This document shows, piece after piece, positions 44,799 through 49,124 of a DNA stretch of 64,000 nucleotides. This DNA comes from Candidatus Bipolaricaulis anaerobius (GTDB taxonomy: Bacteria > Bipolaricaulota > Bipolaricaulia > Bipolaricaulales > Bipolaricaulaceae), in assembly GCF_900465355.1 (NCBI RefSeq), contig NZ_LS483254.1:62001-126000 (forward strand). The letters run 5' to 3'. Position 1 is the stretch's first letter. Each line of letters begins with the position of its first letter. The notes under the pieces are model-generated. The model was not told where the DNA came from and ran no database searches. It saw nothing but the letters and a program-made list of their open reading frames with translations. A program made the translations under genes and the position numbers.

Positions 44799-45281
44799 TC
44801 AACGGCGCTCGATCCCCAAGATCTTGTACTTGATCTTCTTCCCCTGGGTTTGGACCGTGATCATCTTCCCCTTGCTGTACGTCTGGAGGGCTTGCCCGAC
44901 AGGGGAATCCACCCCGATCCGGTTCTGGAGGAGGTCCACCTCGGCCGGGGGGACGAGGGTGTAGGTCGCGACCTCGCCGGTCTCCACGTCCTCCAGGATC
45001 GCTCGGGCGCCGATCCCCACCTCGTCCGGGCGAAAGTCGTCCTCGGTGATGATGCGCGCCGTCTCGAGTAGCTCCCGCAGGGCACGCGCCTCGGCCTCGA
45101 TCATGTCCTGTTCCTGCTTCAGGTACAGGTATTCCCTGTTCTCCCGCACATCGCCCCCGCCGTGGTCCTTCGCTTCCTTCAACCGCTGCGGGATCTCCTG
45201 GTACAGGCGGTGCTCGAGCCGTTCGAGCTCAGCCTTCTTCTGTTGGTAGCCCTCTTTCGTGAGGAGGGTTTCTTTGGCCAT
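44799..45281 (-). CDS. greA: Transcription elongation factor GreA
   Basis: 160 residues. An N-terminal coiled coil (about 10-75) has the acidic tip HGGGDVRENREY with the conserved Asp and Glu that stimulate RNA polymerase cleavage. The C-terminal FKBP-like domain follows (VGIGARAILEDVETGE ... IGVDSPVGQALQTYSKGKMI). GGGAGGTG lies before the ATG. The start lies 53 bases inside rnpA in another frame. Confidence 0.96.
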   Translation of the reverse strand: MAKETLLTKEGYQQKKAELERLEHRLYQEIPQRLKEAKDHGGGDVRENREYLYLKQEQDMIEAEARALRELLETARIITEDDFRPDEVGIGARAILEDVETGEVATYTLVPPAEVDLLQNRIGVDSPVGQALQTYSKGKMITVQTQGKKIKYKILGIERR

Positions 45282-45621
45282 CGCTCACCTCCCGGAACTC
45301 TTCGACCAGCCGCTCGCTCAGGTCCCCTGGGCGCAGGCGCGTGGCCTCTTTGCGGGGGATGACCACCGTGTCGAGGTAGGCGAACGCCTCCTTGTGGAGG
45401 CGAAACCCCTCCCGCACCGCCCGCTTCACGCGGTTCCGCGTCACCGCCCCCCCCAGACGCCGCCCCGCGACCACGAGGAGCCGGGGCGTCGGCTCTTCCT
45501 TGCGGAGGATTCGGAACGAGAACAGAGGAGCTTCCAGGCGTTGACCGCGTTGAAACACGGGGGCGATATCCCGCCGTCGGCGGAGGCGGTGGTCACGCCC
45601 AAGGGTTGGGCTCATGTTCAT
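45229..45621 (-). CDS. rnpA: Ribonuclease P protein component
   Basis: 130 residues. The RNR motif region (AVTRNRVKRAVREGFRLHKE), an early LRRRRDIAPVFQRG and VVAGRRLGGAV identify RnpA, which helps the RNase P RNA mature tRNA 5' ends. Three ATGs are clustered at 45624, 45621 and 45615. I choose 45621 because the -10 box TATCGT ends five bases before it. It is not next to rpmH, where rnpA usually sits, and overlaps greA by 53 bases. Confidence 0.9.
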   Translation of the reverse strand: MNMSPTLGRDHRLRRRRDIAPVFQRGQRLEAPLFSFRILRKEEPTPRLLVVAGRRLGGAVTRNRVKRAVREGFRLHKEAFAYLDTVVIPRKEATRLRPGDLSERLVEEFREVSDGQRNPPHERGLPTEEG

Positions 45622-45626
45622 CATGA

Positions 45627-47385: not shown

Positions 47386-49089
47386 TCACTCACCTCCCTC
47401 TTCCCCCTCCGAGCGGGCGCGGAGGGTCCCCCGCTTGAGCTGAAGTCGCAGGAGCGCCTGGGGTGGGGCCTGACGGGGATCGGTGACCACCGCCCCCTCG
47501 GCCAGGCGCACGATCGCGTACCCTCGCTCCACAACCCGCCGCGGGTCGAGAGCGTGGAGACGCTGGGCATGTCCTTCCAACCGTTCCCCGGCCCACACGA
47601 GCCGCATCCGGGCCCGCGCGGGGACGAGGAGGGTGACCTGGGAGACCCGTTGGCGGGCGAGGGACAGGTCGCGGTTCGCCCCGCGCCCGACCCGCCCCGC
47701 CACGTCATCGAGGCGCGCAGCCGTTCGTCCGAGGAGGGCGTCGGTGGACCTCGGGAGGGCGAGGCGGAACCTCATCACGTCCTGCTGTGCCCCCTCCAGG
47801 CGCCCCCGCACCCCGCGGCGGAGGCGCCGTGCGCGGTGGACGAGCTCCCGCCTCTCCTCCCCCACGCGAACGGTGGCCGCCCGCACCAGCCGCTGCACCC
47901 GCTGGCGGTGGGCCCCGTTCTCATCCTCAACCCGCACCCGCGCCCGGCCGAGGGCCTGCGCCGCCGCCTCCTCGATCCGGCTCAGGGCCTGCCGCACCCG
48001 CTCCACGACGAACTGGGCGGCGGCCGTGGGGGTCTTCTGGCGCCACCCCACCTCGTCCAGCACAGAGCGGTCCTCCTCATGGCCGATCCCCACCACCACC
48101 GGGAGGGGAAAGGTGGCTACCGCCCGGCCGAGGGCCTCCGAGTCGAACCACGCGAGGTCGGTGCGGGAGCCCCCGCCCCGGCAGATGAGCACAGCGTCGA
48201 ACTCGTGGGCACGATCCCGGAACCAGTCGAGCGCGTTGAGAACCGATGCCTCCGTGCTCGGGCCCTGGACCCGCGCCCCATGGACGACGATCTGGAACGA
48301 GAACCCCGATTCCTGGAGCGTGCGCAGGACGTCGTGTTCCGCATCCGAGCCGAGGCTTGTCACGAGGCCGATCCGCAACGGGAGCTCCGGAAACGGCAGC
48401 GATCGGTTGCGGTCGATGAGGCCCTCCGCCGTGAGCCGGCGCACGATCTCCTCGCGGCGGCGCGCGACCTCGCCCAAGGTGTAGGCGAGATCGAGGTCGC
48501 GCACCGCAACTTGGTACCGGCCCCACTCCGTGTGGAGGTCCACCGTCACCAGGACGCGTACCTGGACCTCGTCCTCCAACTGAAACGGGGCCCCCCCACG
48601 CTGTAGCTTCGCCTCCAGGCGCTGGCGATCCTCGGGGGACAGGACGGCCTCCACTTGGGCGAGGACTTCGCCGCCCGGCTGGCGCTCCACGAGTTGGAAG
48701 CTGACCCATTTCTTGTGGGCGTTCCGGTTGAACCCACTCACCTCCCCCACCACCCACAGTGGGGAAGGGAACGCCATCAAGACAGCATTGCGGACCTGGA
48801 GGTTGAGTTGGGACACGGTGAGGTGCTGACCCAACTCTCCCCGGCGGGCCTCGTACAGCCGGCGCGTCTCCTCGTCGAACGTGAACCCCTCGGCGCCCAG
48901 GAGCTCGACCGTCGCCGCGACGTGCTCCGTGGGCACCGTCCAGCATTTCTCCCCCTTGTTCCACTGCCGCCCGGGGAGCCCGCGCACGAGCGCGACGAGC
49001 CGAGGGTCGTAGGGGAACTCGATCCGGAGGAGGCCGCGGTCGTCAGCGGTCACCCGGCGGGTCGGGGAGGAGTTCCTGGTGGGGTCCAT
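47386..49089 (-). CDS. xseA: Exodeoxyribonuclease VII large subunit with an extra N-terminal HARP-like segment
   Basis: 567 residues, about 100 longer than typical XseA. From residue 90 it is a normal XseA: an OB-fold (LTVSQLNLQVRNAVL, WVVGEVSGF), the catalytic region with LRIGLVTSLGSDAEHDVL, ICRGGGSRTDL and VVVGIGHEEDRSVLDEV, and a coiled-coil tail. Before it, residues 20-68 (RIEFPYDPRLVALVRGLPGR, then KCWTVP) resemble the HARP/SMARCAL1-type DNA-binding segment found in front of some helicases. This fusion is unusual. TTGCCG-17-TACGGT ends six bases before the ATG at 49089. xseB follows directly. Confidence 0.92.
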   Translation of the reverse strand: MDPTRNSSPTRRVTADDRGLLRIEFPYDPRLVALVRGLPGRQWNKGEKCWTVPTEHVAATVELLGAEGFTFDEETRRLYEARRGELGQHLTVSQLNLQVRNAVLMAFPSPLWVVGEVSGFNRNAHKKWVSFQLVERQPGGEVLAQVEAVLSPEDRQRLEAKLQRGGAPFQLEDEVQVRVLVTVDLHTEWGRYQVAVRDLDLAYTLGEVARRREEIVRRLTAEGLIDRNRSLPFPELPLRIGLVTSLGSDAEHDVLRTLQESGFSFQIVVHGARVQGPSTEASVLNALDWFRDRAHEFDAVLICRGGGSRTDLAWFDSEALGRAVATFPLPVVVGIGHEEDRSVLDEVGWRQKTPTAAAQFVVERVRQALSRIEEAAAQALGRARVRVEDENGAHRQRVQRLVRAATVRVGEERRELVHRARRLRRGVRGRLEGAQQDVMRFRLALPRSTDALLGRTAARLDDVAGRVGRGANRDLSLARQRVSQVTLLVPARARMRLVWAGERLEGHAQRLHALDPRRVVERGYAIVRLAEGAVVTDPRQAPPQALLRLQLKRGTLRARSEGEEGGE

Positions 49090-49095
49090 GCCCCC

Positions 49096-49124
49096 ACCGT
49101 AGCCGCGGAGGGAGAGGACGGCAA
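49096..49124 (-). promoter_or_regulatory. xseAB promoter, leaderless type
   Basis: On the reverse strand TTGCCG (49119-49124) and TACGGT (49096-49101) are separated by 17 bases, and the ATG follows six bases after the -10 box. Confidence 0.65.

Follow-up and report, generated by a model that had tools for sequence, protein, structure and literature searches.

A HARP-like domain fused to the large subunit of exonuclease VII in Bipolaricaulaceae, and its probable role in directing the enzyme to forked and flapped DNA

Results

An exonuclease VII large subunit with an N-terminal extension

The window analysed here is a 64,000-nt stretch of Candidatus Bipolaricaulis anaerobius (contig NZ_LS483254.1, positions 62,001 to 126,000 of the forward strand). 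It carries an open reading frame assigned in the initial annotation to XseA, the large subunit of exonuclease VII (ExoVII), followed on the same strand by xseB and preceded by a promoter (Table 1). Pfam and TIGR00237 agree on this assignment: the OB-fold family PF13742 and the Exonuc_VII_L family PF02601 both exceed the Pfam cut-off in the protein, and TIGR00237 (xseA) scores 285 bits for a cut-off of 180. The initial annotation had also placed a stretch of residues ahead of the OB-fold. Consistently, alignment to E. coli XseA (8TXR) sets residue 90 of the window protein, where its OB-fold starts, against residue 10 of the E. coli protein, so that about 80 residues are extra in the window XseA.

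Residues D253, R304, H337 and D340 are invariant in 24 orthologues. They are the equivalents of D155, R205, H238 and D241 of E. coli XseA, the catalytic residues of that enzyme (the 8TXR reference used in this alignment is an H238A mutant). As judged by the OB-fold, the catalytic residues and the adjoining xseB, the frame is a complete XseA, and an exonuclease VII large subunit of a working type is predicted from these conserved parts.

Elsewhere on the minus strand, two open reading frames (45229-45624 and 44799-45281) read as rnpA, encoding the RNase P protein, and greA. The end of rnpA overlaps the start of greA by about 53 bases, and the neighbourhood is unusual for rnpA.

Table 1. Features of the headed xseA gene and its protein (positions in the window)
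Feature	Position	Strand	Details
xseA, exonuclease VII large subunit with N-terminal extension	47386..49089	-	567 aa plus stop, ATG start
HARP-like domain, residues ~12-72, bbabba core	48874..49056	-	motif FPYDPRLV..LPGRQW....CWTVP
Helix, residues 73-88, from HARP-like domain to OB-fold	48826..48873	-	seen in both predicted models
XseA OB-fold PF13742, residues 90-199, divergent subtype with insertion	48493..48822	-	Pfam, trees
Exonuc_VII_L catalytic and coiled-coil region, residues 224-558	47416..48420	-	Pfam
xseB, exonuclease VII small subunit, 83 aa	47130..47381	-	4 bp past xseA stop; PF02609 match
Promoter TTGCCG-17-TACGGT	49096..49124	-	TTGCCG 49119-49124, TACGGT 49096-49101

Conservation of the extension and of its promoter

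Among 28 non-redundant members of the Bipolaricaulaceae, the extension aligns over 78 residues, 12 columns of which are invariant. W50 does not vary, and basic residues close to it are conserved. Pairwise pN/pS values of the HARP-like segment within the same genus range from 0.37 to 0.64, close to those of the OB and C-terminal parts, the closest within-genus pair having too few changes to be informative. By this measure the extension is under purifying selection.

The promoter that had been noticed ahead of the extension was confirmed. A TTGnnn-TAnnnT pattern lies directly upstream of the extension in 29 of 29 relatives sampled, the spacer being 17 bp in 28 of them and 18 bp in the remaining one, and is kept across relatives, which are not independent samples, while the surrounding sequence varies. 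In the window, the -10 element ends 6 nt before the ATG; the xseA transcript should therefore be leaderless or nearly so and begin at the extension, and the same should apply in 28 relatives. The head domain, as we call the folded part of the extension, is likely transcribed from its own start.

Protein-level conservation, purifying selection and the recurring promoter together argue that the extension is translated, as had been expected from the position of the promoter. Its occurrence in most of the sampled family genomes (33 of 40; see below), together with the selection and the promoter in all 29 relatives, argues in addition against a chance extension. An annotation artefact, with the true translation start near the OB-fold, could be suspected since E. 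coli XseA begins near that point and XseA frames in other families of the phylum are mostly of about 410-490 aa without extension, but cross-genus amino acid conservation, the pN/pS values and the promoter that adjoins the more distant start in all 29 relatives contradict it and we rejected it as having practically no chance of being correct.

Relation of the head domain to HARP

The initial annotation had read the extension as a HARP/SMARCAL1-type segment from the pattern FPYDPRLV-x-LVRGLPGRQW-x-KCWTVP. This pattern is present as FPYDPRLVALVRGLPGRQWNKGEKCWTVP at residues 25-53, where NKGE had been written as a single x. At the level of Pfam, HARP (PF07443) is the family matched, below its cut-off of 25 bits, by 27 of the 28 orthologues, with 12.7-16.8 bits for the window sequence and 20.8 bits for the best relative. 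The XPB damage-recognition domain (DRD) family PF18458 is matched by four of the 28 (best E 0.0058), no such Pfam match being listed for the window sequence itself, and DUF5710 (PF18974) gives 13.5 bits on the window head, short of its cut-off of 26.5. When the profile of the 28 orthologues was searched against 177,635 distinct PDB sequences, the SMARCAL1 HARP structure 4O66 came first with an E-value of 8e-5, the next match having an E-value of 1.3.

The AlphaFold2 model of the head is compact (pLDDT 85.5), with four strands and three helices, whereas the published HARP fold is a five-stranded sheet packed against two helices (PMC4666394). In a Foldseek comparison of the model with the PDB, the best matches were XPB damage-recognition domains (2fz4, E 0.03, TM 0.47), 4O66 was found at ranks 9-10 (TM 0.45/0.51, E 0.26) and all of the top 15 fell in the XPB DRD or SMARCAL1 HARP groups. 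All these E-values are above 0.001 with TM about 0.45-0.5, a weak level which is usual for a 78-residue domain. The HARP and XPB damage-recognition domains are reportedly structurally alike.

We further compared the head with phage and plasmid proteins. The matches of lowest E-value in a tblastn search with the head domain were helicases, and eight of these that were examined all carry SNF2-related ATPase domains with the head match in front. Comparison of the XseA heads with the helicase heads by hhalign gave 99.5% probability over 70 columns, a value somewhat inflated since the helicase set was picked by similarity to the query, and a score of 107.9, whereas 100 column shuffles never exceeded 19.9. 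The helicase-head profile alone, searched against the PDB, also returned 4O66 first (E 2e-5).

The search also brought out proteins with duplicated heads. Arthrobacter phage Ottawa gp61 (L094:1734-3635), an SNF2-type helicase, has two tandem HARP-like repeats ahead of its ATPase, a layout like that of vertebrate SMARCAL1, which has two tandem HARP copies (PMC4035279); SMARCAL1 has been reviewed as lacking a known prokaryotic homologue (PMC9368896). A 289-aa hypothetical protein on a Rhizobium plasmid (L098:1713-2582) contains two HARP-like repeats with no further Pfam match, and weak matches like this protein occur on many Sinorhizobium, Shinella and Agrobacterium plasmids.

Candidate HARP-like proteins in one sister family were rejected as a short false match, with up to 22 bits over 40 residues, in proteins which we take, as read from their sequence, to be Sua5/YrdC-like threonylcarbamoyl-AMP synthases. 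A lone short match of that level is thus insufficient, which calibrates the profile. Since chance matches to this profile do occur, the HARP resemblance of the head could reflect convergence on a short W/P-rich motif, with neither shared ancestry nor shared fold. However, the match to the helicase heads extends over 70 columns at 99.5% probability, and fold prediction independently gives XPB DRD and 4O66. We regard convergence as very improbable.

Taken together, these results support a HARP-like head related to HARP by homology at the superfamily level, its best structural matches being XPB DRD and not HARP proper. The initial reading stood as far as kinship is concerned, with 4O66 first by profile and among the Foldseek matches, a predicted fold akin to XPB DRD and 4O66, and the hhalign match to the helicase heads. 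Of the two outcomes that it had named as refuting, a lack of structural resemblance to HARP and a translation start at the OB-fold, neither was observed. Membership of HARP itself did not follow, with 16.5 bits against 25 in Pfam and a best Foldseek E-value of only 0.03. Given the Pfam score below cut-off, the weak Foldseek matches and the precedence of XPB DRD, we label the domain HARP-like rather than HARP.

Distribution and history of the headed XseA

In a profile survey of a sample of the phylum, the head domain was found in 33 of 40 Bipolaricaulaceae genomes (E <= 6.4e-31) and in none of 60 other Bipolaricaulota genomes. XseA frames in the other families of the class are ordinary, again mostly of 410-490 aa, and headless. 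Five of the seven headless genomes of the family were checked: two of one genus (L021, L022) have an ordinary XseA, and three have no XseA OB match. The fusion is real and conserved in most of the Bipolaricaulaceae. A literature search, conducted mostly outside subscription journals, returned no paper joining a HARP domain and exonuclease VII.

Tree analysis places the headed XseA proteins in a single clade with full support, separate from the ordinary XseA of the phylum, with which the XseA of the exceptional headless Bipolaricaulaceae genus groups. The simplest reading of these trees would be that the Bipolaricaulaceae exchanged their XseA for a divergent one and that the head was acquired a single time.

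The survey of XseA N-termini covered the Bipolaricaulota, a sample of Patescibacteria and plasmid records. In the 88 Patescibacteria genomes that gave an XseA match, no alignment extended ahead of query residue 82 or reached the head. The XseA of Patescibacteria group bacterium UBA1441 (L038) is headless and 40% identical to the window protein, compared to 25-36% for other Patescibacteria XseA, and it groups with the Bipolaricaulaceae clade on a long branch; it could come from a transfer or from a mis-binned contig. With a headless, long-branched relative in UBA1441 and the head reached in none of the 88 genomes, the headed XseA may or may not have originated in Patescibacteria.

A second small head on plasmid-borne XseA

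A search of plasmids with the whole protein retrieved XseA proteins whose N-terminus is a DUF5710 domain, at 61-67 bits in Polaromonas and Variovorax and 38 bits in Vibrio (cut-off 26.5). These DUF5710-XseA plasmids (L113, L117, L118 and L120) belong to Polaromonas, Variovorax and Vibrio parahaemolyticus. Polaromonas P1-6 (L119) carries an apparently broken copy, split into a DUF5710 open reading frame and a second one.

DUF5710 shares the pattern ..ARWD...R.W.VP with the HARP-like heads. Comparison with HARP-like profiles by hhalign gave 75-85% probability and scores of 29-31 (maximum 15.5 in shuffles), with only 75% against the Bipolaricaulaceae head, and DUF5710 may at best be a distant relative of the HARP-like head. 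In the tree, the DUF5710-XseA proteins form a separate, strongly supported clade, which implies that small heads were joined to XseA at least twice.

Proposed role of the head domain

We consider it reasonably likely that the HARP-like head, fused ahead of the OB-fold in an ExoVII of a working type, grips the duplex side of junctions and directs the enzyme to flaps and forks. The head probably steers the nuclease to such structures in the following way. It would grip the double-stranded side of a junction between single and double strands (a flap, a fork or a gapped end), the neighbouring, ssDNA-binding OB-fold would take up the single strand as it emerges, and the strand or flap fed into the active site would be degraded by the catalytic domain. 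ExoVII would then be directed to flaps and forks rather than hunting free ends. E. coli ExoVII degrades the 3' and 5' single-strand flaps formed at fork fusion (PMC6393302).

The head may instead be a general affinity module that does not discriminate junctions; it could, for instance, strengthen binding to ssDNA or duplex where the genome is small and repair proteins are few. This reading draws on the related DUF5710 head of plasmid XseA, which is an uncharacterised domain, and junction binding and general binding are not separable from sequence alone. Against it, the closest relatives that have been characterised, SMARCAL1 HARP and XPB DRD, are domains described as reading structure or damage, and we consider a general affinity module unlikely.

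Less probable still is a protein-interaction or autoinhibitory module, which would block ssDNA entry or dock a partner without contacting DNA. The full-length model shows a helix between head and OB-fold, the inter-domain arrangement being unreliable (pTM 0.47), and a head adjoining the OB-fold through this helix would be in a position to gate ssDNA entry. The relatives of the head are nevertheless DNA-processing enzymes with the domain in front, which speaks against such a module.

The genomes with the headed XseA also encode RecG. A head substituting for a missing RecG is therefore not supported, and the headed XseA would be an addition to fork processing and no replacement.

Discussion

HARP is known mainly as the fork-recognition part of the human repair protein SMARCAL1, and from motor proteins. 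Finding a HARP-like domain on a nuclease suggests a portable junction reader. The headed XseA is a naturally occurring test case for whether HARP by itself suffices to bring an enzyme to a DNA structure. It also provides an entry point to the DNA structures on which exonuclease VII acts in cells, which are poorly understood. For the uncharacterised DUF5710, its separate fusions to XseA hint at a function. More tentatively, bacteria might have repeatedly attached fork-reading heads to XseA (HARP-like in Bipolaricaulaceae, DUF5710 on plasmids), each time converting an ssDNA exonuclease that seeks ends into a flap or fork nuclease directed by junctions, and so giving rise to a distinct kind of ExoVII guided by DNA structure; we see this generalisation as possible, with the balance somewhat against it.

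Compared with known systems, the window protein has in common with E. coli XseA (8TXR) the OB-fold, the catalytic residues, the coiled coil and an xseB partner, whereas the E. coli protein has no head domain. Within its own phylum it stands on a divergent XseA branch, apart from the XseA of the other members. With SMARCAL1 HARP (PF07443, 4O66) the head shares the Y/L/LP/R/W pattern and a related predicted fold, but SMARCAL1 HARP borders an SNF2 ATPase while the window head precedes the XseA nuclease instead. The XPB damage-recognition domain (2fz4) is the best structural match to the head in Foldseek, although its sequence match is weak and limited to the few members noted above. The heads of phage and plasmid SNF2/DEAD helicases, such as Arthrobacter phage Waltz gp91 and Ottawa gp61, are predicted to be the same domain but sit on an ATP-driven motor. 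Finally, DUF5710-XseA of Polaromonas, Variovorax and Vibrio plasmids carries a small W-x-VP head at the same position as the window head, with a different head domain and in a different XseA clade.
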